Assembly: GCA_037481695.1 (NCBI GenBank)
Contig: JBBFLE010000010.1
Coordinates: 62,001-126,000, forward strand
Direction: 5' to 3'
DNA: 64,000 bases
DNA from: a bacterium
Lineage (GTDB): Bacteria > Desulfobacterota > Desulfocorpusculales > Desulfocorpusculum
This document shows positions 6,883-49,543 of the stretch, in pieces. How positions within the stretch are numbered: the first letter of the stretch is position 1; every line of letters begins with the position of its first letter. The position numbers and the translations under genes are program-made. The notes beneath the pieces are model-generated. The model had not been told where the DNA came from, did no database searches, and saw nothing but the letters and a program-made list of their open reading frames with translations.

Positions 6883-6932
6883 GCAAAAGCCCCTGAATTA
6901 CTTGATGTGTGCGCTTCCAGCTTAGACTGGGT

Positions 6933-7893: not shown

Positions 7894-8325
7894 ATGGAGG
7901 AATTTGCCAACCCATATGAGCAGGGACATCTTTTTGTGGCGGCCATAAGGCTTTTTGTTCACAAGAACCGAAGGCCCCCATCGGTAAAAGACGTATCCCA
8001 GATGCTGGATATTTCCACGGAGATGGGCCATTATCTTTGCAACCGCCTGGCCAAGCTGGAGGTTCTGGAGGTGGTGGAGGGGGCTTTTCAAGAAAGGATC
8101 TATCTCAAGGATCATCTCAGGCTGGAAGAGCTCCCCAGGCAGGAAAAGGCCTCCAATCTGGAGGCAGAGGTGCTCAGGTTAAAGCAGGAGAGGGAGAAGC
8201 GCCAGCAGGAGATAGAGAAGCTCCAAGCCTCTCAGGGAGACAAGAAAAAGGAGCTTTTCAGCGATCTGGAACGCCAGCTAAAAGAAGGTCTCAAGAAGAA
8301 AAAAAACCCCCTGGACGAACTCTGA
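7894..8325 (+). CDS. Small winged-helix plus coiled-coil protein (function unknown)
   Basis: Protein of 143 residues. Residues about 10-80 look like a winged helix-turn-helix (RRPPSVKDVSQMLDISTEMGHYLCNRLAKLEVLEVVEG); residues about 85-140 are highly charged, heptad-like and probably a coiled coil (LEAEVLRLKQEREKRQQEIEKL), ending in a lysine-rich tail. It could be a DNA-binding or scaffold protein. I do not recognise a characterised family. The ribosome site before the ATG is weak, so the start is only likely. Confidence 0.6.
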   Translation: MEEFANPYEQGHLFVAAIRLFVHKNRRPPSVKDVSQMLDISTEMGHYLCNRLAKLEVLEVVEGAFQERIYLKDHLRLEELPRQEKASNLEAEVLRLKQEREKRQQEIEKLQASQGDKKKELFSDLERQLKEGLKKKKNPLDEL

Positions 8326-8989
8326 TGCCCCTCCTTGGAGCTTAACTTCCTGACTTGGATTGCCTTATTGCCTCTGGGCCAGGAGCTTTCATTGGGTATC
8401 CCGGCCTCTCAAGGACCGATTTAAGAGCGCCAGGCGAACGAGCCGTTTTTTTCATCCGCCGCAGCTGTTGCAAAAAATGCAACAACTGAATTGGGATCCA
8501 ACTCCTCCTCTCTGAAGATGTTTCGCAACTGCCTCGAAATGAACGATTTGTGGGGCTCCGAGAGCGAGGCCATGAGGCTATCTGGTTGGGATCAAGCCAA
8601 AGGATCCCCTGCTCCAGCCGCAACGTGAAACCCGGAGCTCGTAGGGCACCAACTGGCTGCCCGGGCCGCCGCAAGGAGCTGCAGGCCAAAAGATCGTTTT
8701 TTTAGGTTGTCATTGTGGTCTTTGTCTGGCCATCGGACCCTTGCTCATGGGATGGGACCACGGTATTAAATATAGGGCTGCGGCAGCCAGGGAAAAAGAC
8801 GAAGAACCCTTCTAGAAGAAGATGCGCCGCCGACGGCTCAATACTGCGCACTGCAGGCCTAAACCGCGCGGCCGGATGCGGACATTGATGCGAATCTCAA
8901 GGAGTTGGGCTTTTAAATGCTGCATTGATTATGGGAGCATTTGTTGTCCATAATAAACGTACTGTTTATCATAAATCAGGACATTCACC
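8326..8989. other. Gene-poor 5' flank of the Fic island
   Basis: About 660 bp with no supported gene. It contains a hairpin (8462-8472 with 8478-8488, one mismatch, A-rich loop), two runs of seven T, and toward its right end CG-rich sequence unlike the native AGG/GGG-rich DNA. Translations in several frames give cysteine-rich or arginine-rich scraps that I cannot assign. It may be decayed foreign DNA. Confidence 0.4.
8950..8972. promoter_or_regulatory. Operator-like palindrome upstream of the Fic gene
   Basis: ATAATAAAC, a 5-nt spacer, then GTTTATCAT: 9-bp arms with one mismatch, ending 17 bp before the ATG. The position would overlap a promoter or ribosome-loading region. Because the Fic protein has its own C-terminal winged helix, autoregulation here is a reasonable inference. 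Confidence 0.5.
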
Positions 8990-10168
8990 ATGATCAACGC
9001 AAGTGAAAACAAAGCCAACCACGCCGGGCGCTACGTTCTTCAACCCACCGGCTACCGCGCTTTTATCCCTGTACCGCTGCCGCCCAGTCCACCCCTCAAT
9101 CTTGCCGGGCCCTTGCGTGAGAAGCTTTCAGCCGCCGATTATGCGCTGGGCCGACTCGACGGTGCAGTGCTGACGCTGCCCAACCCCGATTTGTTCGTCT
9201 TCATGTATGTGCGAAAGGAGGCCGTGCTTTCCAGCCAGATTGAGGGTACCCAGTCGTCGCTGCAAAACCTTCTGGCTGCCGAAGCACGACTCTTCGATCC
9301 CGACACGCCCCATGATGTGAATGAAGTGGTTAACTATGTCAGAGCCATGAACTACGGCCTGGCGCGGCTGGCGGAGTTGCCAGTCTCGGTGCGTCTGATC
9401 CGGGAAATCCATAGAGAGCTCATGCGGGGCGTGCGTGGCAGTCGCCTGCAGCCGGGACAGCTACGCACAAGCCAGAACTGGATCGGCCCGGGTGGTTGCA
9501 CACTGGCGACCGCGACCTTCGTGCCACCGCCGCCCCACGAGGTGCCGCAGGCGTTATCAGACCTAGAAAGGTTTATCCACGATGGCGGCGGCCTGCCACC
9601 AATGGTGCAGGTGGGCCTGGTCCACGCCCAGTTCGAGACCATTCACCCGTTTCTGGACGGCAACGGCCGCATCGGACGTTTGCTCATCGCCTTCCTGCTT
9701 ACCGAAAAACGGCTTCTCTCCAAGCCGGTTCTTTACCTCTCACACTATTTCAAGCAACATCGCAGCGAATATTACGAACGGCTGCAAGCGGTGCGTGACG
9801 CCGGCGACTGGGAGGGCTGGCTTTCCTTCTTTCTCAATGGGGTGATCGAGGTCAGCAACCAGGCAACGCACACGGCCGCCGCAATCCTGCGCATGCGCGA
9901 AGAATACCGCGCCCGTATCACGGACCACCTAGGCCGTGCGGCTGCCAATGGTCAACGAGTGATGGACCGCCTTTTCGACCACCCCATCGTCACAGTCGCC
10001 AAAGTCCGCGAATGGCTGGACATTACTCCAGCCGGGGCAAACCAGATCGTGGCACGGCTGGAAGGCATCGGCTTGTTGCGCGAGATCACCGGCTATGCCC
10101 GCAACCGGCGCTTTCGCTTCGACCCATATTTGCGTTTGTTCGAGGAAGGAGGAGAAGAGGCGATATGA
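8990..10168 (+). CDS. Fic-domain protein with C-terminal winged helix (probable AMPylator)
   Basis: Protein of 392 residues with an intact Fic active-site motif HPFLDGNGRIGR near residues 222-233, including the catalytic histidine; such enzymes usually transfer AMP to target hydroxyls. The N-terminal SSQIEGT near 77-83 matches the (S/T)xxxE(G/N) inhibitory helix, so this is a self-inhibited class II-like Fic, not a toxin needing a separate antitoxin. Residues about 310-385 look like a winged helix. Codon use (CGC/CGT arginine, C-ending codons) differs from the AGG/AGA-rich neighbours, which points to transfer. A RAYT remnant follows downstream. Confidence 0.88.
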   Translation: MINASENKANHAGRYVLQPTGYRAFIPVPLPPSPPLNLAGPLREKLSAADYALGRLDGAVLTLPNPDLFVFMYVRKEAVLSSQIEGTQSSLQNLLAAEARLFDPDTPHDVNEVVNYVRAMNYGLARLAELPVSVRLIREIHRELMRGVRGSRLQPGQLRTSQNWIGPGGCTLATATFVPPPPHEVPQALSDLERFIHDGGGLPPMVQVGLVHAQFETIHPFLDGNGRIGRLLIAFLLTEKRLLSKPVLYLSHYFKQHRSEYYERLQAVRDAGDWEGWLSFFLNGVIEVSNQATHTAAAILRMREEYRARITDHLGRAAANGQRVMDRLFDHPIVTVAKVREWLDITPAGANQIVARLEGIGLLREITGYARNRRFRFDPYLRLFEEGGEEAI

Positions 10169-10241
10169 GTGGAGGCAAGAGGTGTATGAGGGCGCTTATA
10201 ATTTGGAGCAACGTTCATATTTATTAACGCCGACCATAACC

Positions 10242-10389
10242 ATGCCGCAGCATTCGCCTCAGGGGATACGATTACACGCAACCTGGCGCCTATTTTGTCA
10301 CCTTCTGCACGCAGGATCGGGCCTTCCTGTTTTGCGAGGTGGTGGATGGGGGAATGCGGTTGAATGATAGCCCGTCCCCCTTGTGCTAG
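10242..10389 (+). pseudogene. Remnant of a REP-associated tyrosine transposase (RAYT, Y1_Tnp family)
   Basis: From 10255 one frame reads RLRGYDYTQPGAYFVTFC followed by TQDRAFLFCEVVDGGMRLND, the characteristic N-terminal segment of RAYT transposases. The ATG at 10242 (MPQH) is out of frame with it, so a frameshift separates start and body. The similarity stops at about 10371 and the frame ends at 10389, well before the HUH and catalytic tyrosine region. It is a dead 5' fragment of about 45 codons, directly downstream of the foreign-looking Fic gene. Confidence 0.8.
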
Positions 10390-10990
10390 AAAAACCCCCT
10401 CCGATCAAAGGGAGAAGAGATGATGATGGAGAAGAATCTCGCAGCCGGGTTGTGAGGGAAGCCGGCTCAGAAGGGGAACGTAGCCAAGCTAAGGAGCCGG
10501 CTTGGATGAGCCGGGGGCGAGCCGGGCGGCTTGTGCGGATGAGGGGACAATGGCCATTCTGGAGCTGGTCTTTGGTAAGGCCACGGTTTTGCAGATATGC
10601 GGGGCCTTCAGGGTGTGGACTCGGGCCTGTTACCGGATCAGGCACAACCCGGCTGACTGCAGGGCCAAGAACCTGAGTCCTGAAGTGAAGATCTGGCAAC
10701 TTGGTGCAACAGGAGAGATCTTCCATCAGAAAAATTGTCTCCACAAAAGGCATACAGCGCAGGGCCAGTTTGACGATCTCCTCAGTTGACCCCGTTTGTG
10801 CTCATGTGCAACCTGGTTACCCCATCGAGTCCTTGCCTGGTTCGGGCCCGAGAACAGGTAAACATGCTTGGCCCCAATAACACCGAGCCTGGCAAGAGAC
10901 CCAGGTTAGAGTACACGAAGCCAGGTGAAGCGGTTTCTTTTTCATGTTATGGTGAGTGGGAACATGCGTACGTGTGGAGGTACCTAGAGC
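10390..10990. other. Gene-poor 3' flank of the Fic island
   Basis: About 600 bp with no recognisable gene. The hexamer AGCCGG recurs five times between 10443 and 10525, including the arms of the inverted repeat listed separately. Frames of about 90 codons exist on both strands but look like translated non-coding sequence. GGAGG at about 10977 belongs to the downstream kinase gene. Confidence 0.4.
10459..10503. repeat. REP-like inverted repeat near the RAYT remnant
   Basis: AAGCCGGCTC (10459-10468) and GAGCCGGCTT (10494-10503) are perfect 10-bp complements around a 25-nt loop. RAYT genes are typically flanked by short GC-rich palindromes, so this may be a surviving REP element; only one clear copy is present. 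Confidence 0.45.
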
Positions 10991-12409
10991 ATGGGCAATG
11001 TGATCAGGGTGCTTTTTCTTGGCTGGAACGATGCTGCCAGGTGCCTTAAGGAGGCATGGTCTCGCAATCCCGAGGCCCCCCGTCTTGTGGGAGTATTTGT
11101 GCAGGATGGAGATTCCATGGATTTGCCACAGGGTGTTGCGGCAGAGCTGGTGCTAAAGGATCTGGCTGCCATGGAGGCTTCCCAAGTGCCGGAGCTGGCC
11201 CTTGAGTTCAGAGAAAGCGTTTCCACAAGACCAAAAGAACTTCCCCCAGGGGTGCAATGGGTGCCTGCAAGGGTCACGGCCTTGCTGGAGGGGCTTTGTT
11301 TGGGAAGCGAGGAGGGGTTTCGTTACAAGAGCGTGGTAGAGACAGCAAGGGACGCAGTGGTAACCATAGACGAGTCCCACAGGATAGTTTTCTTCAACAA
11401 GGCGGCCGAGGCCATGTTCGGATTCTCCAAAGAAGAGGTCCTTGGGGAGGACCTGAGCATAATCATCCCGCCTCCCCACAAGCAGGTCCACAGGCAGTAT
11501 GTGCAAAGGTACGTGGAGACCCGCAGGGGCCGATTCATTGATCACACCGTGGACCTCACTGCCCAGCGTCGTTCAGGGGAGGAGTTTCCCATCAGCATAT
11601 CCTTTTCAGTGGCCGAGCTGGGAGGTCGTCTTCTCATGACCGCCATGATGCGGGACATGAGCGAGATGAAGGAGATGGAGCGCCGCCTCATCCAGAACGA
11701 AAGACTGGCTTCCATAGGCCGAGCCCTATCTTTTGTTACCCATGAAGTGAAAAATCCCCTGGTGGTCATAGGGGGGTTTGCCAGAGCCTTGTTGAGAAAG
11801 GCTGAAGTGCCTCAAGAAGTAAGGGAAAAGCTGGAGATAATCAGATCCGAAGTCCAGAGGCTGGAGGGGCTGCTCCAGGAGATACAGGACTTCTCCAAGC
11901 CCTTTAGACTCCAGAGGGAGCGCTTTGCCTTGGTGCCTTTGCTGCAAGAGACCCTGGCCATGTTCAGGGATTCTGCTGATTGCTCAGGTGTGGAGTTTCT
12001 GCTGGAGGCAGAGGGGCAGATTTGGTTGAGTGCAGATCCGGATCGTCTAAGACAGGTCCTCATCAACCTCATAAAGAACTCCATGGAGGCCATGGGAGGC
12101 AAGGGCAGGTTGGTCCTGCGAGCAAAGGAGATTTCCCAGGACATGGTGGAAATAAGTGTGGAAGATACCGGGGAGGGCATAATCCCGGAGCGCTCAGAGG
12201 AGCTGTTCCAGCCCTTTGTGACCAGTAAGCCGGGTGGAACGGGGTTGGGCCTTCCTCTTTGTCGCAAGATAGTGCGGGACCACGGAGGGGAGATCAAACT
12301 CCAGGGCATGCCCTCCGGAGGTGCAAGGGCCGTGATCTATCTGCCCACCAAAGAGGACCCTGGAAATGAATGGGGCTCCTCGGACGATTTACAGAAGAAA
12401 GACCGCTGA
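10991..12409 (+). CDS. Cytoplasmic PAS-domain sensor histidine kinase
   Basis: Protein of 472 residues without membrane segments. An unassigned N-terminal domain (1-110) starting IRVLFLGWNDAARCLKEA is Rossmann-like in its beta-alpha opening. It is followed by a PAS domain (about 112-230), a HisKA box with phospho-accepting histidine in FVTHEVKNPL, and an HATPase with N box (INLIKNSMEA), DTGEGI and GTGLGL. No receiver or partner response regulator is adjacent. The MFS gene follows by 24 bp and may be co-transcribed. GGAGG lies 10 nt before the ATG. The signal is unknown; the soluble PAS suggests an intracellular cue. Confidence 0.88.
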   Translation: MGNVIRVLFLGWNDAARCLKEAWSRNPEAPRLVGVFVQDGDSMDLPQGVAAELVLKDLAAMEASQVPELALEFRESVSTRPKELPPGVQWVPARVTALLEGLCLGSEEGFRYKSVVETARDAVVTIDESHRIVFFNKAAEAMFGFSKEEVLGEDLSIIIPPPHKQVHRQYVQRYVETRRGRFIDHTVDLTAQRRSGEEFPISISFSVAELGGRLLMTAMMRDMSEMKEMERRLIQNERLASIGRALSFVTHEVKNPLVVIGGFARALLRKAEVPQEVREKLEIIRSEVQRLEGLLQEIQDFSKPFRLQRERFALVPLLQETLAMFRDSADCSGVEFLLEAEGQIWLSADPDRLRQVLINLIKNSMEAMGGKGRLVLRAKEISQDMVEISVEDTGEGIIPERSEELFQPFVTSKPGGTGLGLPLCRKIVRDHGGEIKLQGMPSGGARAVIYLPTKEDPGNEWGSSDDLQKKDR

Positions 12410-13795: not shown

Positions 13796-16072
13796 TCACA
13801 ACTCTACTCCCAAACGTTTCCATACAGACTCGCCATCGCCTATTTCCTGGGCCTTCAGATGAGGATAGGTCTTCAGTAGAAACCAGGTCAAAGGCAGGAC
13901 CCCCAAGAGAATTATGGTAAGATCCGGGATGACCCTCAGAGTTCCCAGCAGAAGCACAGGCCCCCTCTCGAAGAACCCTGCGTCCCTTGCTGCCCACAAT
14001 CCTTCCTGATAGGCGGTCCAGGTCTGCATCACCCCCACGGGGAAGAGGGTGCCCAGTGTTAAGAGCAAGAGTCCACCATTGAACCCCCAGAAGCAGAGTT
14101 TTAGAAGCCGGTCGTTCCAATGCTCTTTGCGCACCAGGCCCCTCCAGGAAAAAAGGAGCAGACCTATGGAAAGCAGACCGTACACTCCAAACAGAGCCCC
14201 GTGCCCATGGTTCATGGTCAGGTACGTGCCATGCTCATAGTAGTTGACAATGGGCAGATTGATCAGGAATCCGAAAACAGCAGCCCCCAGGAAGTTCCAG
14301 AAGGAGGAGGCCACCAGGAAGTATAGGGGCCACCTGTAAGGGAACTGCCTGCCCTGTTTGGTGACGCTTCTGTACTCCAGGATGGCCCTTACTACCAATC
14401 CGAACATGGGTACGGGCTCCATGGAAGAGAACACGGATCCCAAAGAGAGCCAAAAGGAGGGCCCGCCATACCAGAAATAGTGATGAGCGGTTCCTATTAT
14501 CCCGCTAAGGAAGACTATGGCCGCCGTAAAGTAGGCCACCATGAGAGCGGCTCTGGCAGTGGCCAGGCCCAGGCTGACCAAAATGAGGGAGACCACTCCG
14601 ACTCCAAAAAACTCAAAGATGGACTCAACCCAGATGTGCACCACAAACCATCTCCAGTAATCTGCCAGGGTCAGATGGGAGCCCCTGCCGTAAAGAAGCC
14701 CAAAGCCGAAGAAGGCCACGACCAACACGGCGCTAAACAAGTAGAACATGATCAGGGAGCTGTAATCGTCCTTGTGCCCCAGTTTCTGGTGGTAGTACAC
14801 GGCCCTGTAAACCACAAGCAACCAGGCTATGAGCCCCACGAAAAGCAGTATCTGCCAAATTCTTCCCAGCTCCAAAAACTCCCAGCCCTGATGCCCCAGC
14901 CAGAACCACCACTCTCCCAGAAGCCCCTTGATTCCCGCCACCTCCCCCAGGAGACTCCCTGCGGCCACAAGCAGAATTGCCACAAACAGAATCTGCACCA
15001 GTGTGGCCTGTCTTCTGGGCTCGACCCCACCTATTATGGGTGCCAGGTAGATGGCCGTGCCCACCCACGTGGTGGCTATCCAGAAAATGGCCAGCTGTAA
15101 GTGCCAGCTCTTGGCCCAGCTGTACGGGATCAGATCTGCTATCCACTGAAAGTAGAAACTGGCAGGATGAATGGTGTAATGGGCCAGAAGTCCGCCAAAG
15201 TTGGTCTGTACCAGAAAAAGCAGAGCCACCACCAGAAAAAATTTGGCGGCTTTGAACTGACTGGGGGTCAGGGGCATGTCCACCAGCTTTTCTGCAAGGG
15301 GGACTCCCTTGGTAGGTCCGTACCAGAGCCCGTAGTGGTGGACAAAGAACACAAATATGCCCAGCACTATGAGCAGTCCCAGTATTCCTCCCAGACTCCA
15401 AAGATATGTAGCGGTGGTTGGGACATTGCCCACGCTTCTGTCAGCAGGCCAGTTGTTGGTGTAAGTGTGGTCCTGGCCGGGTCTCAAGGTGGATGCGGCC
15501 CAGGCAGTCCAGAAAAAGAATCTGGAAAGCTGAAGCCTCTGTTCTGGGCTCTTTACGGTCTGGGGTAAGATTCCGTAACGGTTTTCCCCATCTCTGAAAA
15601 CTCTCTCCCAGTGGGCCTGTATTTCTCCCAGGGCCTTCACCTGGGAGGCTGTCAAAACAAGCTTGTCCCCGGCTTTGTCGTATCTGTTGGTTTTTATCTC
15701 CCTTATGGCCCTCAGATCGGCCACCTCTTTTTGGGACTCATCCAGGTCTCCATAGGCCTTGTGGAATTCGGCTTTTGCCAGATGCTCTCTCACAATGGTG
15801 CTCATGATGTGAAGGCTGGCCGCTGAAAACTCTGGCCCCCTCTGGGATCCATGACCCCATATGCTTCCGTGGTCCATGAGGCCGTGGCTTTGGTATACAT
15901 CCTGACCCGCCAGAATGTCCTGCTTTGTGAAAAGCACCTTTCCATCTGGATCCAAGACCCTGCCTGGATATGGAGGCATATGCTCCACCGCAAAGTAGCC
16001 TCCTCCCAAAAGCACTGCCATGGATACCAGGAAACTAATGATAGCCGCCCACTTAAGCCTCCCCATGCTCAT
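13796..16072 (-). CDS. norZ: Quinol-dependent nitric oxide reductase (qNOR)
   Basis: Integral membrane enzyme of 758 residues from the ATG at 16072, preceded by GGAGGTG; upstream in-frame ATGs reach 16186 but lack a site. The N-terminal part (about 1-230) holds one membrane helix and the periplasmic NorC-like domain lacking heme ligands, as in single-subunit qNOR. The NorB part retains the FeB/heme ligands and glutamates: HIWVESIFEFF, GTAHHYFWYGG, SSMEPVP and NHGHGALFGVYG, so it is not a nitric oxide dismutase by those residues. In the quinol-site segment AHYTIHPASFY a histidine occupies the place where characterised qNOR has glutamate. It reduces NO to N2O, probably for detoxification, since no other denitrification gene is near. 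Confidence 0.92.
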   Translation of the reverse strand: MSMGRLKWAAIISFLVSMAVLLGGGYFAVEHMPPYPGRVLDPDGKVLFTKQDILAGQDVYQSHGLMDHGSIWGHGSQRGPEFSAASLHIMSTIVREHLAKAEFHKAYGDLDESQKEVADLRAIREIKTNRYDKAGDKLVLTASQVKALGEIQAHWERVFRDGENRYGILPQTVKSPEQRLQLSRFFFWTAWAASTLRPGQDHTYTNNWPADRSVGNVPTTATYLWSLGGILGLLIVLGIFVFFVHHYGLWYGPTKGVPLAEKLVDMPLTPSQFKAAKFFLVVALLFLVQTNFGGLLAHYTIHPASFYFQWIADLIPYSWAKSWHLQLAIFWIATTWVGTAIYLAPIIGGVEPRRQATLVQILFVAILLVAAGSLLGEVAGIKGLLGEWWFWLGHQGWEFLELGRIWQILLFVGLIAWLLVVYRAVYYHQKLGHKDDYSSLIMFYLFSAVLVVAFFGFGLLYGRGSHLTLADYWRWFVVHIWVESIFEFFGVGVVSLILVSLGLATARAALMVAYFTAAIVFLSGIIGTAHHYFWYGGPSFWLSLGSVFSSMEPVPMFGLVVRAILEYRSVTKQGRQFPYRWPLYFLVASSFWNFLGAAVFGFLINLPIVNYYEHGTYLTMNHGHGALFGVYGLLSIGLLLFSWRGLVRKEHWNDRLLKLCFWGFNGGLLLLTLGTLFPVGVMQTWTAYQEGLWAARDAGFFERGPVLLLGTLRVIPDLTIILLGVLPLTWFLLKTYPHLKAQEIGDGESVWKRLGVEL

Positions 16073-16320
16073 GGCCACCTCCATGATAGTGTAGGCGTTA
16101 GCTCTTGTTCCTGCTTGGTTTTGAAACCCAAAGATAGCACCAAAAGGAAAAGAGGTAAACCCCTTCTGGGTGCAACCAAGATCCATTCTTTCCCCGGATG
16201 TGGATGGGTTTGCCCAAGCACAGGGCGGATCCCCACCCCCTAGGCTCAGGTGCCAATGTACCAGAGCCCCGGAATGCCCCGTTTCTTCACCAACCCCTCC
16301 AGCTCTGTCCGGGTGATTCC

Positions 16321-39862: not shown

Positions 39863-40912
39863 TCAATATTGCCAAAGCTGCCTTCTTATGAGGGCCAGGT
39901 CCTCGGGCTCTGGCTGGAAAGGGAAACTCCTTATGTCCTCACCTGGTGCGCAGTCTCCATAAGGCCTGGTGCAAACTGCCTTGCCATCAGGCCCGGGGCA
40001 GCCGCTTGTCATGAAGGGAAGCCCAGAGGCGATTACCCTTTCCAGTTCCACCGGGCTCAATCCAAAGGAGACTATCTGCCCCTTCTCGTTGAATGAGAAA
40101 TCCCTGGCCTCTGCCAGGTCCTGGTCTATGAGATACCTGGCCAGCTGGCACCTTCGATACTGTCCCGCAGGGGGCTGAGGATGCTCCTTTAGTTGGGATC
40201 CTGGCTCGGGGAAAAAGCTGAATAGATGGGTGGAGCCTCCTTGTTTGCGGATCCTGTCCATGAGCCTTATCATCTGTTCTTCTGTCTCTCCCAGCCCAAC
40301 TATGAGATGGATTCCCACATGGTCTTGGCCGAAGATCTCCAAGGCCTCCTGGAAGAGCTCCCAGTACTTCTCCCATCTGTGCGGACCCCTGACCCCCTTG
40401 CCCCTGAACTTGTCGAAGATCTCGGGGGTGGCCCCATCCACTGCTATGCCAAGCCTGTCCACGGGGATGGCCCTGTATCTTTCCAGGTGCTCACGCCTGA
40501 GAAGCGTGGGTGTACAGAGAAGAGAAAGGGGAATCCCAGGAAGTTCCTGATGAAGCCTCTGCAGTATGATTTCAGAGTCTTTGACCGCCTTTCCATTGGT
40601 TATCATGGAAAGGCAGATGCGCTTCACCTGGGGGTTGGTCTTGCTCCTGGAGATGATCTCCTCCAAGGAGACCACTGGCCAGTCCACCCGGATGAAGCTC
40701 TTCTTGTCGTAGGTGCCCTGCCTTGCCCTCTGAAGGCCGCAGTAGGCACAATTGGCCGCACAGCCCTCTCCATAGGTCATGAGCAGGTTTATACACTCCA
40801 GCCTGGCGTTTCTGTAAAAACTGCCTGTTTTCATGCCCAGGGTCATGGCAGCAGCCAGACTTATACGCAGGAATTCAGGACTCTCAGATGATTGCGCAGA
40901 CACTTCTCCCAT
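39863..40912 (-). CDS. Radical SAM protein of a LipS1/LipS2-type lipoate synthase
   Basis: Protein of 349 residues with the radical SAM cluster motif CAANCAYC (C-x3-C-x2-C) near residue 52-59 and biotin-synthase-like neighbours. A C-terminal set of cysteines (SGCPGPDGKAVCTRPYGDC) could hold an auxiliary [4Fe-4S] cluster that serves as sulfur donor, as in lipoate synthase. The ATG at 40912 follows GAGGAGG; the frame to 40975 overlaps the previous gene. With the next three upstream genes it matches the LipS1/LipS2 lipoate assembly cluster described in archaea and many bacteria, in which two radical SAM proteins each insert one sulfur into octanoyl-protein. Which of the two it is cannot be said by eye. 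Confidence 0.8.
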   Translation of the reverse strand: MGEVSAQSSESPEFLRISLAAAMTLGMKTGSFYRNARLECINLLMTYGEGCAANCAYCGLQRARQGTYDKKSFIRVDWPVVSLEEIISRSKTNPQVKRICLSMITNGKAVKDSEIILQRLHQELPGIPLSLLCTPTLLRREHLERYRAIPVDRLGIAVDGATPEIFDKFRGKGVRGPHRWEKYWELFQEALEIFGQDHVGIHLIVGLGETEEQMIRLMDRIRKQGGSTHLFSFFPEPGSQLKEHPQPPAGQYRRCQLARYLIDQDLAEARDFSFNEKGQIVSFGLSPVELERVIASGLPFMTSGCPGPDGKAVCTRPYGDCAPGEDIRSFPFQPEPEDLALIRRQLWQY

Positions 40913-40928
40913 TTCCTCCTCGGATTTT

Positions 40929-41909
40929 TTACTGGGCCCTTTCAGATGTGTCCTGACCCATGGAAAAACCCGCAAGCTCCCCAGGCACCGAACAGCATGT
41001 GGGCAGAAACTCCACCTCTAACCCCAGCTCTCGGGCTGCCTTGAGCGTCTCTTCGCTGTAAAGGGCTATTCGCTGCACCCCTGCCTCCAGGGCCAATCTT
41101 TCCAGCTCCAGTCTCTGTTTGCCCCTGGGCCTGGCGCAACCAAGGGTTATGAACGCCTCGGGAAACATGAGACGGCTTTCTGCTATGAGTCTGGCCACTT
41201 CCACCGGGCTGGCCGATGCGGCCTGCCCAAGAGGCGTGCCTCTTAGGGGCATGAAGGCCACCCATACCAGCAGCTCCACAGGATAGCGCCTCAGGATTTC
41301 CAGCCCCTTTCTCTCCCCCACTATCTGCCCGGCGTGAACACCTGCCACAATGTGAGGAGCCACCCTAAGCCCGCAGCCATAAAGCGCATCCAGAGTCTCT
41401 TCCAGAAGCTCCAGGCCCTGTTCCAGATGCATGATGGAGGCCCATGTCTCTCGGGCCCCCACCACTTCCACCAGCACCTGGTCCACCCCCGCTTCCTTCA
41501 AGGCCCTGGCAGTGGGCCCATCCACCATGCCCGAGTGCACTGAAACGTGAAGACCTGTGGATGCCTTCACCTTTTCCAGCCCCTCCAGGAATCCTCTCCA
41601 TGGAAGCCTTCCCTGGGTGTCGCTGCCGCCCGTGACCAGGCAGCCCAAGGATCCCTCTGCCTCCAGCCTGAGACACAACTCCAGCAGCTCCCTGGAGTCC
41701 TGGACGCTGTGCATGGGCTCCAGGATCTTCCCCCGGCAATGCTCACAGCCCAGGCTGCACCTGCTTCCTGTTATGGAGATGGCCGGGTAAAGCCCTGTTT
41801 TCCCGTCCACTATGAACATGCCCGGAAGGCAAAGGGTTATCTTGTTTCCGAATCGCTCCCTGGAGATGGCCCTGGCCTTTCTCAGGAGTTCCTGGAGGGG
41901 CTCTGCCAT
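40929..41909 (-). CDS. Radical SAM protein of a LipS1/LipS2-type lipoate synthase (partner)
   Basis: Protein of 326 residues of the COG1856-type radical SAM group. The cluster motif is CSLGCEHC (C-x3-C-x2-C) in YPAISITGSRCSLGCEHC, and the C-terminus ends in FLPTCCSVPGE, whose cysteines, with LGCARPRGK further upstream, may ligate a second cluster. The ATG at 41909 is preceded by GGGGGAGG and begins 5 bp after the FAD protein gene; a GTG at 41930 is an alternative. The assignment as a lipoate-synthase partner rests mainly on the neighbouring ligase and on the paired radical SAM gene. Confidence 0.8.
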   Translation of the reverse strand: MAEPLQELLRKARAISRERFGNKITLCLPGMFIVDGKTGLYPAISITGSRCSLGCEHCRGKILEPMHSVQDSRELLELCLRLEAEGSLGCLVTGGSDTQGRLPWRGFLEGLEKVKASTGLHVSVHSGMVDGPTARALKEAGVDQVLVEVVGARETWASIMHLEQGLELLEETLDALYGCGLRVAPHIVAGVHAGQIVGERKGLEILRRYPVELLVWVAFMPLRGTPLGQAASASPVEVARLIAESRLMFPEAFITLGCARPRGKQRLELERLALEAGVQRIALYSEETLKAARELGLEVEFLPTCCSVPGELAGFSMGQDTSERAQ

Positions 41910-41914
41910 CTTGT

Positions 41915-42997
41915 TCAGTTCCTCCCCCACAAGAAATACTCCCTGAAGGCCACCCAGTGGGAACGCACCAGGGCCTCAAAGGAGCCCTTGAGCCAGTCCT
42001 GCTCCATGCTCTTTCTGTGGAGCACTGCCCGCTCAAGGCCAGGTAGAAGCAAGTCCCTCCACCTCTGCTCATATTCCCCCAGTCTTTGTGCATTTCCTGA
42101 GCAGAGGGCCTCCCGGGCCGCCAGGCCCGCCATCTCCCCGCAGATGAGGGCATTGGGGATGCCTCCTCCTGTGACAGGATCAGTATGTCCCGCGGCGTCT
42201 CCGGCCAACAATATGGTACCCGAGGCCGTGATGGAATGAGGGCCTCCCACTGGAACAAGGCCTCCTGTGGCAGGACCCTCCAGCCTGCCCACCAATCCTT
42301 TTTGCCTGAGCTTTTCCAGGAACCAGCTAAGAAGCTGGGATATTCTTCCGGCCTGAGATCTGTCCACCCCCAGCCCCACATTGGCCCAGTCCCCTTTTGG
42401 GAAAAGCCATGCGTATCCCCCTTGGAAGGCAGGCCAGAAATGGACCTGGGTGCAGGAAAGGGGGGTCTTCAATTCTGCTCTCACCTGCAAAGCGTAAAGA
42501 AAGGCCTTGTGCCTGAGGCCCAGGGCCTGGGCGGCCCTGGAAAGGGGGCCGTCTGCCCCTATGAACAAAGGAGCCTCAAGCTCCAGGAATTGGCCCTGCA
42601 CAAAGAGGCTCACCCTCCCATTTTCCACTTTTTGAACCCTGGCCCCTTTGATGAGGCGAGCCCCGGCCTCCTGGGCCTCAAGGGCCAGCTTTTGGTCCAG
42701 TCTGTTCCTGTGCATTACAACACCCGGCCAGTGGTTCTCTGCCAGGAGCCTGTCCTGCAGGTATGTGTGCATGCCCTCCACCTCTTGTGCCCAGCAGGTT
42801 CGGGGAAACCTGAGGGCCACGGCCATGGGCACGTACTCGGCGCACTGCACGGGCTCGCCCACCACCTTGCGGCGCTCCAGTACAAGGGTCCTTAGGCCGC
42901 CCAAGGCCGCCTGCCTTGCCGCCGAGCAACCGGCCGGGCCCCCCCCTATGACAACCAGGTCCCACTTCCCGGCGCATATGGGCTCCTCCATGCTCAT
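41915..42997 (-). CDS. Geranylgeranyl-reductase-family FAD oxidoreductase (LipT-like)
   Basis: Flavoprotein of 360 residues: dinucleotide fold LVVIGGGPAGCSAARQAALG at the N-terminus, the VGEPVQCAEYVP block with a conserved cysteine, and ILLAGDAAGHTDPVTGGGI near 270. It belongs to the geranylgeranyl reductase-like group. The ATG at 42997 overlaps the stop of the ligase gene (ATGA) behind GGAGG; the frame to 43336 is false extension. In reported LipS1/LipS2 clusters a flavoprotein named LipT occupies this place and is proposed to supply electrons to the radical SAM enzymes; the same role is inferred here. Confidence 0.82.
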   Translation of the reverse strand: MSMEEPICAGKWDLVVIGGGPAGCSAARQAALGGLRTLVLERRKVVGEPVQCAEYVPMAVALRFPRTCWAQEVEGMHTYLQDRLLAENHWPGVVMHRNRLDQKLALEAQEAGARLIKGARVQKVENGRVSLFVQGQFLELEAPLFIGADGPLSRAAQALGLRHKAFLYALQVRAELKTPLSCTQVHFWPAFQGGYAWLFPKGDWANVGLGVDRSQAGRISQLLSWFLEKLRQKGLVGRLEGPATGGLVPVGGPHSITASGTILLAGDAAGHTDPVTGGGIPNALICGEMAGLAAREALCSGNAQRLGEYEQRWRDLLLPGLERAVLHRKSMEQDWLKGSFEALVRSHWVAFREYFLWGRN

Positions 42998-44580
42998 GCT
43001 GCCCTCCGGGCCAGAGACAATACCTTTTTCAGGAGCCTCAGGTTTATGTGGGTCTGGTGTTCGAAGCCACCCTGGTATGCGTCGCGAGCCTTGCCCAGGT
43101 CGTAACAGGTGGTGCTGTCCATGCCCACAAGCACCCCTGGCACACCGGCCTGCTCGAACTCCTGGGCATGTTTCACATAGAAGCCTTCGCAACAGCAGCC
43201 CAGAAAGCCTCTGGCCCCTTGCGTCTTCAACTTCTCCAGATTTTCCATGAGATTCTCGAAGCTGGTCACGGTCACGGGCTTGAGACCATATTGCCTTGCC
43301 AGGGCATAGCCTTCTCCTATGGAGCAAAGCCCGCATTCATAACAGCCGTCCGAGTGGCGAAGCTCGCAGGTCAGATCCTTGGAACAGTAGGGCAGCAAGA
43401 ACCAGTCCATTCCGCGGCTCAAGACCTGGGGAAGGCTCCCCCCCACAGGGAAAAGCTCATGGGTCTCGTGAAAAGAGAATCCCAACTCCAGATATGGAAG
43501 TTTGCCCAAAGCCTTGGCAAAGGCCTCAAAAAAATCCCTCATACCCAGGGAGGGGAAAGGGCTGGGGACCTGGGAGAAAAAGTTGCTTAGGATCTTTTCC
43601 ACCTCCTCCATTTTGGCCGGCACGTCCTTGAACCTGCTTTCCAGGTCATAAACAGCCCTTGCCGGAAAGGCGAAGAAATCTCCTGAGATCACAGCAGAGC
43701 GGATCCTCTTCCTGGCAGGATCCAGGTCCAGAAGAAGCCTTATGAGTCCTCCCTCTCCCTTGTGAAGGGCCTTCATGAAGCTTCTACCTTGGGAGACATG
43801 GCTTCGCCTGTCCACCCAGGAGGGTGAAGAGAACCTGGGCAGAAGGGCCTCAAGCCTCTCCTGCTCCCAGGCAGTCAGGCCGGATCTTGTGAACTCCACA
43901 TCAAGACCCCTGGCAAAGCCCCTGATCAAAGCTTCCTTTATGTGGGCTGCCTGGGGCAGGTAACCCAGCTCCCTTTTCATGGTGGTCACCCTTTCCATGA
44001 GGGAGTCCACCTCGTGGGCCTTGAGCTTTTCCATGGGAACTCTAAGGGCCCTCAGCATCTGCCATATGTCCAGATCCACCAGAAGGGTGCCTTGAAAAAG
44101 AAACGCCTCACCCTCGGCAGTGCCTCCTGTGCCCGATATCTTTCGGCCTCTTATCTCTATGTCGTTTCTGGGCCTGAAGCACAGGGGAAGCCCGAAAGCC
44201 TCTTGCAGGGCGCCACAGAAGATCTCTGAGAGCTTGCGGGCCACCTGCTCGGGGGAACCCCCCAGGACAGGGTCTTCTCTATGGGCTATGATCTCCCAGC
44301 CTATGTGGCTGGGCTCGAAGAGGATGGCACCTCCGCCAGTGATGCGGCGGTTGACCTCTATGCCCTGCCTCTGGCAAAAATCAAGCCTGAGTTCCTGGTC
44401 CAACTGCTGATGGTAGCCAACCAGGGCAGAGGGTCTTGAGAACTGCAGGAAACGAAGCGTGTCCGGACCAAGACCACGAGCCCTGGACTCCAGAAGAACC
44501 TGATCCAGGGCCATGTTCTGGGCGGCATTTCTAAAGCCTGTGTCCAGCAGTCTCCAGATCCTCTTGGAGCTCATGCTCAT
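42994..44580 (-). CDS. Lipoate-protein ligase fused to a DUF116 domain
   Basis: Protein of 528 residues with three parts. Residues 1-245 are an LplA-type ligase: NRRITGGGAILFEP at 77-90, and the catalytic lysine K147 in NDIEIRGRKISG. Residues about 262-350 resemble the accessory LplB domain (GGLIRLLLDLDPARKRIRSAVISGDF region). Residues about 390-500 form a DUF116 domain with cysteines in LPYCSKDLTC, GCYECGLCSIG and GCCCEGF, probably metal- or cluster-binding. It would attach octanoate or lipoate to carrier proteins and hand them to the radical SAM pair. ATG 44580 is favoured over the longer frame to 44679. Confidence 0.85.
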   Translation of the reverse strand: MSMSSKRIWRLLDTGFRNAAQNMALDQVLLESRARGLGPDTLRFLQFSRPSALVGYHQQLDQELRLDFCQRQGIEVNRRITGGGAILFEPSHIGWEIIAHREDPVLGGSPEQVARKLSEIFCGALQEAFGLPLCFRPRNDIEIRGRKISGTGGTAEGEAFLFQGTLLVDLDIWQMLRALRVPMEKLKAHEVDSLMERVTTMKRELGYLPQAAHIKEALIRGFARGLDVEFTRSGLTAWEQERLEALLPRFSSPSWVDRRSHVSQGRSFMKALHKGEGGLIRLLLDLDPARKRIRSAVISGDFFAFPARAVYDLESRFKDVPAKMEEVEKILSNFFSQVPSPFPSLGMRDFFEAFAKALGKLPYLELGFSFHETHELFPVGGSLPQVLSRGMDWFLLPYCSKDLTCELRHSDGCYECGLCSIGEGYALARQYGLKPVTVTSFENLMENLEKLKTQGARGFLGCCCEGFYVKHAQEFEQAGVPGVLVGMDSTTCYDLGKARDAYQGGFEHQTHINLRLLKKVLSLARRAA

Positions 44581-44791
44581 GACTCTGTTTGGCCTTTTTT
44601 TCTCACGAGGATCTGGCCCATCGGGAGGGGATCCTCGATTCCCCTGAAAGAGAATTTGCCCTAGTCTCTCGGGGAGCAAAGAGCCTGGCCCCTTTCCCCG
44701 GGGTCTTGTCTATTTTTGCATGTTATGGGGCGGGGATAAACCCCGGGGCCTGGAAGCCCAGGAGCATTTGGGCTTGGGTGTGGCAGCCCGC

Positions 44792-47272
44792 TCAGGCTTG
44801 ATCCAGTGCCTGCCTTACCTTGTTGGCCAGGTCTTGGCGGTTGAAGGGCTTCTGTATGAAGCACGCCCCCTGCTCCAGCACTCCATGATGGGATATGGTG
44901 TTGGTGGTATAGCCGGACATGAAGAGGCTCTTGACCGAGGGCCTCATGGCCCGGATTCTCTGGGAGAGCTCCTTACCGTTCATCAGGGGCATGACCACGT
45001 CCGTGAGAAGCAGATGGATCTCCCCATGGTGTTTTTCACAGATGGTCAAGGCCTCTCCTGGGCTGGAAGCTTCAATCACCTTGTAACCCAGATGCTCCAG
45101 CATGGTCTTTGCCAACTTCCTGACGCTCTCTTCATCTTCCACCAATAGAACCGTCTCAGAACCTCTTGGCTCATGCAGAGGGGCCTTGGGCACGGCTTGC
45201 ACCTCTTGTTCCTGGCCCCCATGGCGGGGAAAGTAAAGCTTCACTGTGGTGCCTAGGCCTGGCTCGCTGTAGAGCTGGATGAGACCTTTGTTCTGCTTCA
45301 TTATGCCATACACAGTTGAAAGCCCCAGGCCTGTTCCCTTGCCCTCCTCCTTGGTGGTGAAAAAGGGCTCGAAGGCTTTTTCCATTGTCTCCCGGTCCAT
45401 TCCACAGCCTGTGTCCGTCACGGCCAGAAGCACATACTCCCCTGCAGAAGAGCCCGGATGGCTTTGGCAGTATTTTTCATCCAGCAAGACGTTTTGGGTC
45501 TCAAGCAATAATTTGCCGCCTGAGGGCATGGCATCTCTGCTATTGACCACCAGGTTGGCCAAGGCCTGGTCCAGTTGGGCCGGGTCCATGAACACAGGCC
45601 ACAGGCCCTCCTGTGGAGTTATCTGGAGCAGGATATCCTCGCCCACGATTCTTCGAAGCATCTTCTCCATTCCCAAGAGCTGCTCATTTATGTCCAGGCT
45701 CCTGGGTGAGATGATCTGCTTTCTGGAAAAAGCCAGTAACTGCCTTGTAAGCTCGCTGGATCTTCCTGCTGCATTCAAGATCTCACGGATATCCTGGTAC
45801 AGGGGATCTGCTGGGCTTAGCCTCTGAAGACAGATTTCCGCATAGCCCTGTATGATGGTTAGCATGTTGTTGAAGTCATGAGCCACGCCTCCTGCAAGTC
45901 TGCCCACAGCTTCCATCTTCTGGGCCTGGCGAAGCTGTGCTTCCAATTTTTCCCTCTCCTCTGTGGACTTCACATATTCTGTTATGTCCACCCAGGCCCC
46001 GATGGCCTCCACAGGCTCTGCCCTTTCATCCCGCAGGATTCTGATCTCGTCTCGCACCCACATGTAACTGCCGTCTTTTCTGCGGAACCTGTATCTTTGG
46101 GTCAAGGTTTTCCCAACCCGGCTCCACATGGTGTTTTTGAGCTCCAGGGCCCGATCCATATCCTCGGGGTGCAGGTTGTCCTCCCACCAGCCAGGCTCCA
46201 TGGCTTCCTTCACGCTGTAACCGGTTATTTCTGTGATGTTGTCGCTTATCCATATGGTTCTGGTTTGTCCCTCTCTAGGGGCCAGGATATAGGTCACTAT
46301 GGGGCTCGTGGAGAGCACGTGGGCCAGGAGGCTGTAGGTGTCCCTCAACTCCTGTTCTAGCTTTAGCTTCTCTGTGATGTCCATACCTGTGCCAAGGATG
46401 TACGGAGCTTCTCCTTCAGGGGAGGGAAGGGGAGAGCATCTCCACTCTATCATTCGTTCCAGGCCCTCTTTGGTGCGCCAGGGATTGAGGTGTGGGAGCC
46501 TTAGGCTTGGATCATGTGGGTTGGAGAAGCGGGCCTTAACTGTTGGGTGCCACTCTTGGGGCACCAGCAGCTCCAGGAAGTCTTGTCCCAATACCTCTTG
46601 CTTTTTGAAACCCGTCAGCTCCTCGCAGGCCCTGTTGAAAAGAACTATCTTTCCCTGTGGGTCTGCCATGACGATGAGGACCTCTGCGGTCTCCAAAAGG
46701 GCTTCCAATTGCTTTAAGGATCTCTCCAGTCTTTCGGCATACCTTTTCTCTTGGGTTATGTCCTTGGCAGCCCCGTAAATCCTCACTACCCTTTCATGGT
46801 TCTTGTCCCAAACCGGTATGGCGTGATCCCTGATCCAGCGTATATCCCCAGAGCGGGCCACAAACCTTGTTTCTATGACATCCACCTGGCCGCAAGCCAC
46901 TTTCCGGGCATGTTGGAGCATGCCAGGGAGATCCTCTGGATAAACCATGCTTTGCCAGCCGCCCCTGGCATCCACTTCTTCCAGTGTGAAACCGAATACC
47001 CTCACGAAGGAGTCCGAGACCCACTCGCCTTCCAGGGAACCATCCTCCTTGACCTTGAATGAGTAAAGGTAATCCGATACCACCGCACAGATGGACCTGA
47101 AGCGTTCCTCGCTTTCCTCCAGGGCCTCTTGGACTTCCAGGGATCTTATGATGAAGGGGCATTTCTCCCCGAAAACGAGGTCCACCTCGCCCCTACGGAG
47201 GGCCTCCATGGTCTCTTCCAGCTGGGCCAGACGAGCCTCCAACTCCTGGTATGTTGGTTTTTGTTTGGTCAT
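44792..47272 (-). CDS. PAS-rich hybrid sensor histidine kinase with receiver domain (Kai operon output)
   Basis: Cytoplasmic protein of 826 residues, no membrane segments. A short coiled coil (1-35) precedes three PAS/PAC domains (about 55-185, 190-310, 315-445; each PAC ends in ...DITE/DITQ). Then comes a HisKA box [17 protein letters not shown], an HATPase with [17 protein letters not shown] and GTGLGL, and a C-terminal receiver (about 705-826) with phospho-aspartate in LLLTDVVMP. The ATG at 47272 follows GGAGGGGG and overlaps the end of kaiB closely. Its position after kaiC and kaiB suggests it reads the Kai state or an added signal. Confidence 0.9.
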
Positions 47273-47274
47273 GT

Positions 47275-47583
47275 TCAATCCCCCTCCCGCTGGATCCCCA
47301 GGAGCTTGAGGAGCCTGGAAGGATCGCTCAAGCCACCCACGATACGGATCTGGGCAGAGGGCTCATAGATCACCAAGGTAGGCGCCACCAGCACGTTTTC
47401 CTCCAAGGCTATCCTGAAATCCTCAAGCACATCCACCACCTCCAGACTGTAACGCCCTTGCAGGTAATCCCTGCAAACTCTTTCAATGGTAGCCTTGGCC
47501 ACACGGGAGTTGGGTTGGTCTCCTGCCACAAAAAGCCTCATCCTCAGTGGAGGCCCCTTTTTCTCATCACCATGGTGCTCCAT
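47275..47583 (-). CDS. kaiB: KaiB-family protein
   Basis: Protein of 102 residues with the thioredoxin-like KaiB pattern: MRLFVAGDQPNSRVAKATIE, the GRYSLEVVDVLEDF segment, NVLVAPTLVIYEPSAQIRIVGGL, then SDPSRLLKLL. In cyanobacteria KaiB switches fold and binds the KaiC CI ring. GAGGAG nine bases before ATG 47583 fixes the start; longer frames reach into kaiC. It lies 13 bp after kaiC and directly before the hybrid kinase. No KaiA gene is present, as in most non-cyanobacterial Kai systems. Confidence 0.9.
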   Translation of the reverse strand: MEHHGDEKKGPPLRMRLFVAGDQPNSRVAKATIERVCRDYLQGRYSLEVVDVLEDFRIALEENVLVAPTLVIYEPSAQIRIVGGLSDPSRLLKLLGIQREGD

Positions 47584-47596
47584 GCCCGGCATCTCC

Positions 47597-49333
47597 TCAC
47601 TCGCCCTTGGACGCAAACAGTTGTGATGGGATTCCCTCTTCCCTCAGGCTCAACCTCTCTGCAGTTTCCTTGCTGGCCCTCTCTTTTTCTGCAATGAGTC
47701 TCTCCAGCTCCCATCTGGCCTGCTGGATCTGGGCTTGGAGTCTTGCCTGCTCCGCCTCCAAGGCAGCCTCCAGGCGCTCCAGATCCATCTTTCTGAGCCT
47801 GATCTCCGCCTCCATGCGGCGAACCTCTTGAGCATCTCTGGCTTCCTGGAGCTTTCTGGCTGTGCCTGTGAGGACCCCTCCTGGGCCGCTGTAAGCATCC
47901 ATGATCTTGATGCCCTCATCTGTTATCACGCACTCCCTGAGCTGGTTGGAGTGGGCCGAACCCCTGCTCTTGAGCACCTGCAAGACCCTGTTGGTCTCCC
48001 CGTCGCCGTGCACATAAGAAAAGAAGACCACAGTGTCTATCATGGAGGAAATTCCATTACCGGATATTTCCAGGTGGGCCTTGCTGCCCGAGGTCTGGTT
48101 CACAAGAAAGATGGTTGTTCCCCTCTGCTTGAGGAAGTTGAGTAGCCTGAAGAGAAAGTCGAAGGCAGCCTGCTGTCCTCCCATGCGCTGGCAGGCTGAG
48201 ATGGCATCCACCACCACATGGTGGGGTTGGAACTCCTCCACCTGATCCACCACTGCCATGAGATGTTCCTCGGCCCCCCTGCTCTCTGGCATGGGAGTAA
48301 GGAATCTCAGAAGTCCTTTTTCCCTAAGGGGAGCCAATTGAATCCCAGCGCTGGTGACGTTGCTCACCAGTGCCTCCTCGGACTCCTCGAAGCTCACGTA
48401 CAGCGCGCGCTCACCCCTGTGGCAAGCCTTCTCCACGAAGCTGCAGGCCAAAAGTGTCTTGCCGGTGCCTGGCTCTCCTGCCAGAAGCACGCAGGAGCCC
48501 CTGAAAAAACCACCTCCCAGAAGCCCGTCCAATCTCTCCACCCCCGAGGGAAGCCTCTCCCCAAAGGCTTTGTGAAGGAGCTGGAAGGCGGTGATGGGAA
48601 GAGTCTTTATGCCCGAAGATGTTATGGAGAAGGGATACTCGTTCCTGCCAAAGTCTGAGCCCCTGTACTTGACCACCCTGAGTCTTCTGGTGCTTACCTG
48701 ATTCATTACCCTGGCATCCAGGGCCAGCACGCAGTCGCTCATGGAATAGAAAAAGTCCCGCAAATCCTTACTCGGTCCTGTTTCGCGGGGCTTCAGGGTC
48801 ATGATGGTTGTAAGCCCAGAGTCAGAGAGCCAATCAGCCAGAAGATGCAGCTCCGCTCTTACCCTGGAGGGCCCTTTCATGAGTCCCAAAAGCACATCCA
48901 GAGCATCCAGCATCACTCTTTTGGCCCCCATCTCCTGGGCCTTACCCGAGATGATAGCCATCATGGGCTCCAAACCGAAATCCCCTTCCACATCCCCCCT
49001 GATGCTTGTCTTGCCTTCCATGAGCAAGAGCTTCCCCTGTGCTTCCAAAGCGGGCAAGTCAAAACCCAGTGTCAAGGCATTTTGGCGAAGCGCCTGGGGA
49101 GTCTCCTCCAGGCTTAGCATTATTCCGGCATCCCCGTTTAAAGCCGCCCTGTAAAGGATCTCAAGACCCATAACCGTCTTGCCAGAGCCCGGCTCTCCGC
49201 AGATCAAGGTAGTGCGGCCCTGGGGGATTCCGCCGCAGAGGATCTGGTCAAGACCCTCTATGTAGGTGGGCAGTTTGGGAAGGGCCACGGCCTGGGTCTC
49301 TCTTTGCTGCTTATCAGTGGTAGGTCCTGCCAT
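47597..49333 (-). CDS. kaiC: KaiC-family double-domain ATPase with C-terminal coiled coil
   Basis: Protein of 578 residues with two RecA-like halves. CI: Walker A GEPGSGKT (46-53), catalytic glutamates E76-E77. CII: Walker A GEPGTGKT (286-293), E316-E317. The CII phosphorylation site reads S429-S430 in NGISSMIDT, where cyanobacterial KaiC has Ser-Thr, so both positions keep hydroxyls. After residue 490 a long charged coiled coil (about 492-565) replaces the cyanobacterial A-loop tail, consistent with lack of KaiA. GGGAG precedes the ATG. Predicted autokinase, autophosphatase and ATPase; whether it keeps time is unknown. Confidence 0.92.
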   Translation of the reverse strand: MAGPTTDKQQRETQAVALPKLPTYIEGLDQILCGGIPQGRTTLICGEPGSGKTVMGLEILYRAALNGDAGIMLSLEETPQALRQNALTLGFDLPALEAQGKLLLMEGKTSIRGDVEGDFGLEPMMAIISGKAQEMGAKRVMLDALDVLLGLMKGPSRVRAELHLLADWLSDSGLTTIMTLKPRETGPSKDLRDFFYSMSDCVLALDARVMNQVSTRRLRVVKYRGSDFGRNEYPFSITSSGIKTLPITAFQLLHKAFGERLPSGVERLDGLLGGGFFRGSCVLLAGEPGTGKTLLACSFVEKACHRGERALYVSFEESEEALVSNVTSAGIQLAPLREKGLLRFLTPMPESRGAEEHLMAVVDQVEEFQPHHVVVDAISACQRMGGQQAAFDFLFRLLNFLKQRGTTIFLVNQTSGSKAHLEISGNGISSMIDTVVFFSYVHGDGETNRVLQVLKSRGSAHSNQLRECVITDEGIKIMDAYSGPGGVLTGTARKLQEARDAQEVRRMEAEIRLRKMDLERLEAALEAEQARLQAQIQQARWELERLIAEKERASKETAERLSLREEGIPSQLFASKGE

Positions 49334-49399
49334 GTGATCTCCCTTTCCTTAGAATTGGTTTCGAGGAGGAGAAGAGGGCCTTGGGTTCAAAATGGACCT

Positions 49400-49428
49400 A
49401 TTATATCAAACCTTGAGCTCGTGCAATC
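49400..49428 (-). promoter_or_regulatory. Probable promoter of the kaiC-kaiB-kinase operon
   Basis: On the minus strand a perfect TATAAT (49405-49400) lies 17 bp downstream of GATTGC (49428-49423). Transcription would begin near 49393, about 60 nt before the kaiC ATG. The -35 box is poor. Confidence 0.5.
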
Positions 49429-49543
49429 AGGTTCAGGCAGGCCCCCAGGCCGGCTTTTTTGAGTCTGGTTTTTTTGGACAGGCCTTCCCCCGGGCACAAA
49501 GAGGAGTCGTGCTGGGCCCTCGATGTGAAACCTTGGCCTTGGG

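Follow-up and report, generated by a model that had tools for sequence, protein, structure and literature searches.

A conserved N-terminal element of KaiBC-operon kinases as a candidate docking adaptor, seen from a KaiA-less kaiC–kaiB–histidine kinase operon in Desulfocorpusculum

Outside cyanobacteria, KaiC–KaiB pairs have to act on their targets without SasA and KaiA. One such pair belongs to a three-gene operon in a 64,000-nucleotide stretch of a Desulfobacterota genome (Desulfocorpusculum; GCA_037481695.1, contig JBBFLE010000010.1, positions 62,001 to 126,000), called the window below. The operon encodes a two-domain KaiC, a KaiB and a hybrid histidine kinase, and a short conserved element at the N-terminus of the kinase is a minimal concrete candidate for the contact. 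These parts lie in the window as follows:

47597..49333, minus strand: kaiC, 578 residues, two RecA/KaiC ATPase domains (CI and CII) plus a C-terminal helical extension
47275..47583, minus strand: kaiB, 102 residues from the ATG at 47583, a member of the Pfam family KaiB (PF07689)
44792..47272, minus strand: hybrid histidine kinase, 826 residues from the ATG at 47272, assigned by Pfam domains and catalytic boxes
47084..47266, minus strand: KaiBC-associated N-terminal element of the kinase, residues 3–63 (core about residues 8–42), delimited by a hidden Markov model (HMM), its alignment (A6) and an AlphaFold2 model

The kinase consists of the element, three consecutive PAS domains, a HisKA domain (His465), HATPase_c and a receiver (Asp758). 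It has no KaiB-like thioredoxin domain of the SasA type at its N-terminus, the only KaiB-domain match in the genome being kaiB itself. The locus was compared with about 120 others, drawn from 395 genomes of the same phylum and from public genomes by KaiC alignment search. Their KaiCs form a Rhodobacter (Cereibacter) sphaeroides-type clade A and a sister clade B, to which the window belongs. Nearly all aligned third genes begin with the same stretch, ahead of any recognised domain. In clade A it reads roughly RLEEAEETLxAIRxGEVDALVV..G..VFTLKGADxPYR, with a conserved GEVD turn, and one Asp (Asp31 of the window kinase) is invariant in the 59-row alignment. Neither Pfam nor NCBIfam holds a model or credible match for it. 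AlphaFold2 predicts a helix (residues 8–26), a short hairpin and a second helix (residues 44–65) that runs into the first PAS domain (PAS1); for the element with PAS1 the mean predicted local distance difference test (pLDDT) score is 90.6, falling to ~70–76 around the hairpin. Foldseek matches of this model are PAS/LOV sensors, a search in which the PAS fold dominates and the element is not identified.

The profile (HMM A6) finds the element at 71 of the 86 clade A and 23 of the 28 clade B kaiC loci and in none of the 90 other PAS or HATPase open reading frames (ORFs) of those loci. The window kinase is the sole match in its own genome (E-value 1.9e-19), a matter of consistency and not an independent test, as this kinase is one row of the profile. 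Since third genes served to train the profile, its specificity is judged more fairly by scanning whole genomes. The scan of the 395 same-phylum genomes, where the best 15 candidates per genome were scored and further matches are possible, gave at least 41 hits, of which 38 adjoin kaiC or kaiB. Among the matches scored, it is present in 30 of 31 genomes with a KaiC2-type kaiC and in 3 of 364 without one (Fisher p 2e-40, uncorrected for kinship). Of the three hits not beside kaiC or kaiB, two are clear (L197 and L198, below) and one (G283) was dismissed as chance level, being internal to its protein with an E-value of 4e-5. Forty genomes from other phyla, including Nannocystis genomes of 12–13 Mb, usually contain exactly one match, and all 30 examined adjoin kaiB. 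Three genomes labelled Ignavibacteria/Chlorobiaceae whose kaiC locus lacks kaiB have no match, and the kinase beside the KaiC1/3-type kaiBC of Aquisphaera is likewise without the element.

What follows the element is far more variable. Among the third-gene products are kinases of the HisKA, HisKA_3, HWE and HisKA_2 types, only some of which have a receiver, as well as GGDEF/EAL and GGDEF-HD proteins and sigma-54 activators. At the locus whose KaiC is nearest to that of the window in the tree (L104), the element is carried by a GGDEF-EAL protein; in L070 it fronts a sigma-54 activator that has no PAS domain. Pairwise distances of the element correlate with those of KaiC (r=0.78) and KaiB (r=0.73) nearly as KaiB and KaiC do with each other (r=0.80), and distances of the kinase ATPase domain do not follow those of KaiC (r=-0.12; r=-0.09 in clade A alone). 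The element is thus nearly exclusive to kaiBC-linked proteins, is kept across unrelated effectors and diverges with KaiC and KaiB, not with the kinase domain. Because it is retained while effectors change, and because its distances follow KaiC and KaiB, we put at about even the chance that it is a dedicated KaiBC docking adaptor, by which an energy-state switch would control interchangeable effectors in bacteria and archaea. It would then be a non-SasA counterpart of clock output, undescribed in the open-licence PMC literature.

Several observations weigh against an adaptor role. Within clade A alone the correlation between element and KaiC falls to r=0.40, the first PAS domain also correlates (r=0.70), and the low value for the kinase domain stems in part from the mixture of kinase families. 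Some kaiC–kaiB loci have no element (e.g. L106, L107, L151 and L161, and three with a Crp-type third gene, L146, L147 and L178). Conversely, L197 is a clear match away from kai genes, in a genome that has other kaiBC operons, and L198 (G102:C216, 7233-9665) is an element-bearing hybrid kinase (E-value 6e-10) in a genome where no KaiC2-type kaiC was detected, the only clear match of its kind among the phylum-scan matches scored. The element may also be a helix for dimerisation or signal transmission that is inherited along with the operon and nothing more.

Two sets of loci stand apart. L129, L135 and L142 have clade A KaiCs with the full C-terminal tail, no kaiB detected alongside and no element genome-wide. 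L200 (G037:C20:32000-48000, positions 6680-11456) encodes a 168-residue KaiC remnant followed by an element-bearing hybrid kinase of 1437 residues, with no kaiB detected, and is possibly a decaying operon.

The operon itself is real and intact, and as a bacterial combination of KaiC, KaiB and histidine kinase it is fairly ordinary. The original prediction, made from the letters and ORFs of the window, had described a two-domain KaiC in which the two Walker A motifs and the catalytic glutamates are present, a KaiB 13 bp further on and a three-PAS hybrid kinase, all without KaiA. The motifs are read in the ORF, the kaiB ATG at 47583 does lie 13 bp past the kaiC stop (translation could also begin in frame at 47592 or 47616), and the kinase architecture agrees; only the 3 bp given between kaiB and the kinase was wrong, the ATG at 47272 being 2 bp past the kaiB stop (an alternative TTG at 47278 would overlap kaiB). 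The absence of KaiA also stands: PF07688 has no match in the host genome, and the S. elongatus control was detected by the same search. The genome contains one KaiB match, one two-domain KaiC and a single copy of the kinase. Upstream of kaiC lies one further feature:

49334..49543, minus strand: gap between kaiC and its upstream neighbour on the same strand, by gene layout the presumed operon promoter region

No sigma-70-type site was found on the minus strand of this gap.

In clade A as in clade B, genes are commonly arranged in the order kaiC–kaiB(–kaiB)–signalling gene. A conserved functional module is supported by the survey, in which a kinase or other signalling gene stays beside kaiCB at dozens of loci, across dozens of families and many phyla. 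A kaiC–kaiB pair followed by a kinase or a GGDEF/EAL gene was tabulated in 2011 (PMC3164672). In some Acidobacteria (Vicinamibacterales), the Crp-type loci named above, kaiC-kaiB-kaiB is followed by a Crp-like cyclic nucleotide-binding, helix-turn-helix regulator without the element. An apparent KaiB–kinase fusion in L080 was rejected and treated as an assembly gap, because unknown bases lie within it. In L108, a Chloroflexi metagenome-assembled genome (MAG), two nearby kaiC genes have separate signalling genes; the KaiC of the window's clade is accompanied by kaiB and an element kinase, and the other KaiC type has no kaiB.

With the KaiC equivalog PRK09302 the window KaiC reaches 516 bits, where the cut-off is 408, and it matches Pfam PF06745 in two stretches (322 bits). 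Its closest solved relative is R. sphaeroides KaiC (PDB 8dba, E-value 1.3e-115). It has the two ATPase domains of the two-domain KaiC family, each with a Walker A motif and a catalytic Glu pair (residues 76-77 and 316-317), and the features that bear on its function are these:

49175..49198, minus strand: CI Walker A motif GEPGSGKT, residues 46-53, read from the sequence
48455..48478, minus strand: CII Walker A motif GEPGTGKT, residues 286-293, read from the sequence
48044..48049, minus strand: predicted phosphorylation pair Ser429-Ser430 in ISGNGISSMID, aligned with S413/S414 of R. sphaeroides KaiC
47600..47851, minus strand: charged helical C-terminal tail, residues 495-578 (84 residues), aligned with the R. 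sphaeroides coiled-coil extension (8DBA)

In the tree, clade A, with the window outside it, has an iqtree2 ultrafast bootstrap of 100, clade B 88 and the inner clade B node that holds the window 100; FastTree supports are 0.956 and 0.997. The window KaiC therefore does not fall inside the R. sphaeroides-type coiled-coil clade but in its sister. KaiCs near-identical to it occur in same-phylum genomes and in named Syntrophaceae, and several clade B relatives are MAGs whose titles, the only guide used, suggest dark or non-phototrophic settings.

The Ser-Ser pair is found in 85 of 88 clade A and 23 of 27 clade B KaiCs; the residues just before it are Ser-Gly in clade B and usually Thr/Ser-Asp/Glu in clade A. 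The tail, present in 85/88 clade A versus 12/27 clade B proteins, is long enough, at 84 residues, to count as an R. sphaeroides-type helical extension (about 50 residues or more) and has 70 residues without Pro or Gly. Its heptad signal is modest (p ~0.02 for L/I/V/M periodicity, and a non-significant 0.38 with Ala counted as hydrophobic); the R. sphaeroides tail gives p 0.07 in the L/I/V/M test, which is weak either way. The original prediction saw the Ser-Ser site, a coiled-coil tail in place of the A-loop and a kinase–receiver in the same operon as distinctive. The Ser-Ser pair, a tail and the kinase–receiver are present, but the tail does not replace the A-loop: the A-loop-region segment GPGGVLTGTARK, common to R. 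sphaeroides, is kept, and the tail comes after it (LTGTARK). Nor are they distinctive. R. sphaeroides KaiC, which works without KaiA, has Ser413/Ser414, and its C-terminal extension forms a coiled coil that holds two hexamers together (PMC10076222), and PAS kinases in kaiBC operons have been published for R. sphaeroides and R. palustris. Already known, then, are the Ser-Ser sites, the helical extension, the absence of KaiA and the downstream kinase; what is new is the conserved N-terminal ~60 residues of the kinase.

The KaiB is divergent. It exceeds the cut-off of the Pfam KaiB family (51 bits against 27) and falls well below that of the circadian KaiB equivalog TIGR02654 (53.3 bits against 145.3). 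In R. sphaeroides numbering it keeps P58 and P65 and has Ala in place of P67; all three prolines are present in 142 of 144 clade A versus 13 of 25 clade B KaiBs. Isomerisation of these prolines limits the slow fold switching of KaiB, and single P58A or P65A mutants lose the switched state (PMC11551320). Modelled by AlphaFold2 with a clade B alignment, the window KaiB is thioredoxin-like (mean pLDDT 78), and the best PDB matches of the model are fold-switched or constitutively thioredoxin-like KaiBs, which suggests that this KaiB may not need to switch. Given the behaviour of the P58A and P65A mutants, loss of P67 could also act in the opposite way. Only one KaiB, a divergent one, is encoded in clade B operons, whereas clade A usually has two kaiB genes; in clade A loci such as L076, L090, L115 and L122, kaiC and the effector gene are separated by a tandem pair of kaiB genes that belong to different sequence classes. 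A single-KaiB sister lineage that often lacks a switch proline bears on the origin of KaiB fold switching.

The operon probably encodes a KaiBC switch that does without KaiA and is coupled through the N-terminal element to an output protein of its own, where docking, the direction of signalling and a downstream partner are what we infer. By analogy with R. sphaeroides biochemistry, KaiC would form an ATP-dependent ring that autophosphorylates Ser429 and Ser430 at high ATP. By the same analogy KaiB, whose thioredoxin-like binding fold is probably in place from the start, would bind the ADP-state CI ring and return KaiC to the dephosphorylated state. The third gene product would dock to KaiC or to the KaiB–KaiC complex via the element (helix, short hairpin, helix; residues ~3-63), and docking would gate the kinase, with the phosphoryl group passing from His465 to the fused receiver at Asp758 and on to a further partner.

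The direction could be the reverse: the PAS domains may respond to redox or some other cue and regulate KaiBC, with the element delivering the kinase to KaiC. For the operon kinase of R. sphaeroides, redox input of this kind has been proposed (PMC5520375), and the distribution of the element fits either direction. Input is nonetheless unlikely, given that the element also fronts sigma-54 activators and GGDEF/EAL enzymes, which are output-type modules, and that some third genes, as in L070, have no PAS domain. The same locus argues against the element being a coiled-coil or PAS cap that serves dimerisation alone, in an operon shared for co-regulation without physical contact. The predicted helices leading into PAS1 and the PAS/LOV character of the Foldseek matches fit a cap; other PAS kinases in element-containing genomes lack the element, however, and the element tracks the divergence of KaiC and KaiB, so that we consider this reading rather unlikely.

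R. sphaeroides KaiBC is an ATP:ADP-driven hourglass (PMC10076222), and the original prediction allowed for a clock-like or hourglass module here. A true clock or daily hourglass is improbable in view of the lack of a KaiA match, the seemingly dark habitats of several clade B relatives and a single KaiB without P67, one of the three prolines that set slow switching. It is less likely than energy-state sensing, and nothing found here supports a daily clock. Decay of the operon, to which the divergent KaiB and the KaiC remnant beside the element kinase of L200 might point, is highly improbable: the Walker, catalytic, phospho-acceptor and receiver residues are all intact and the reading frames are tightly spaced. 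An output switch that docks through the element remains our preferred reading.

The original prediction took the host for an anaerobe, which is not established. Its genome contains dsrA, a cbb3-type-like oxidase subunit and two heme-copper proteins resembling quinol-dependent nitric oxide reductases, and because such reductase-like proteins co-occur with dsrA and the cbb3-like subunit, the host may be facultative rather than strictly anaerobic. One of the heme-copper oxidase family proteins is encoded in the window (13796-16186, minus strand, 796 residues), with a second copy at G000:C17:46786-48012. Judged by length and sequence it is probably a quinol-dependent nitric oxide reductase; it has no NCBIfam match at an E-value of 1e-20. 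An apparent amber codon inside dsrA was rejected, as the profile match had extended upstream beyond the stop codon before the gene. A lipoate cluster lies a short way downstream of the kai operon (39863-44679, minus strand). It encodes LipS2-like and LipS1-like lipoyl synthases just below the NCBIfam cut-offs, a flavoprotein resembling geranylgeranyl reductase, and a fusion of lipoate ligase with DUF116.

Among known systems, cyanobacterial KaiABC-SasA shares with the window a KaiC/KaiB core coupled to a histidine kinase via the N-terminal part of the kinase. Unlike it, the window has no KaiA, no KaiB-like domain at the kinase N-terminus, and Ser-Ser in place of the cyanobacterial Ser-Thr phosphosites. 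The idea of a kinase N-terminus dedicated to KaiC also recalls the Nt_HK of Ramlibacter, where the gene after kaiC encodes a kinase whose N-terminus is proposed to be KaiB/SasA-like (PMC3164672); that group, set apart here by description, has no kaiB, and its N-terminus is described as KaiB-, SasA- or receiver-like. The proto-circadian system of Rhodopseudomonas palustris, a kaiC-B-PAS/histidine kinase operon of three genes without kaiA (PMC4794148), is likened to the window by description as well and belongs to a phototroph with a tested rhythm phenotype. Closest is the KaiBC-HWE operon of R. sphaeroides (PDB 8DBA, 8FWI, 8FWJ), alike in its kaiC-kaiB-kinase order, Ser-Ser sites, extension, absence of KaiA and the element. 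The window differs from it in having a KaiC of the sister clade, a more divergent KaiB without P67 and a HisKA hybrid kinase with a fused receiver instead of an HWE kinase. With structures of R. sphaeroides KaiC and KaiB available and the element present in its operon kinase (E-value 2e-18), that system is well suited for testing whether the element docks.

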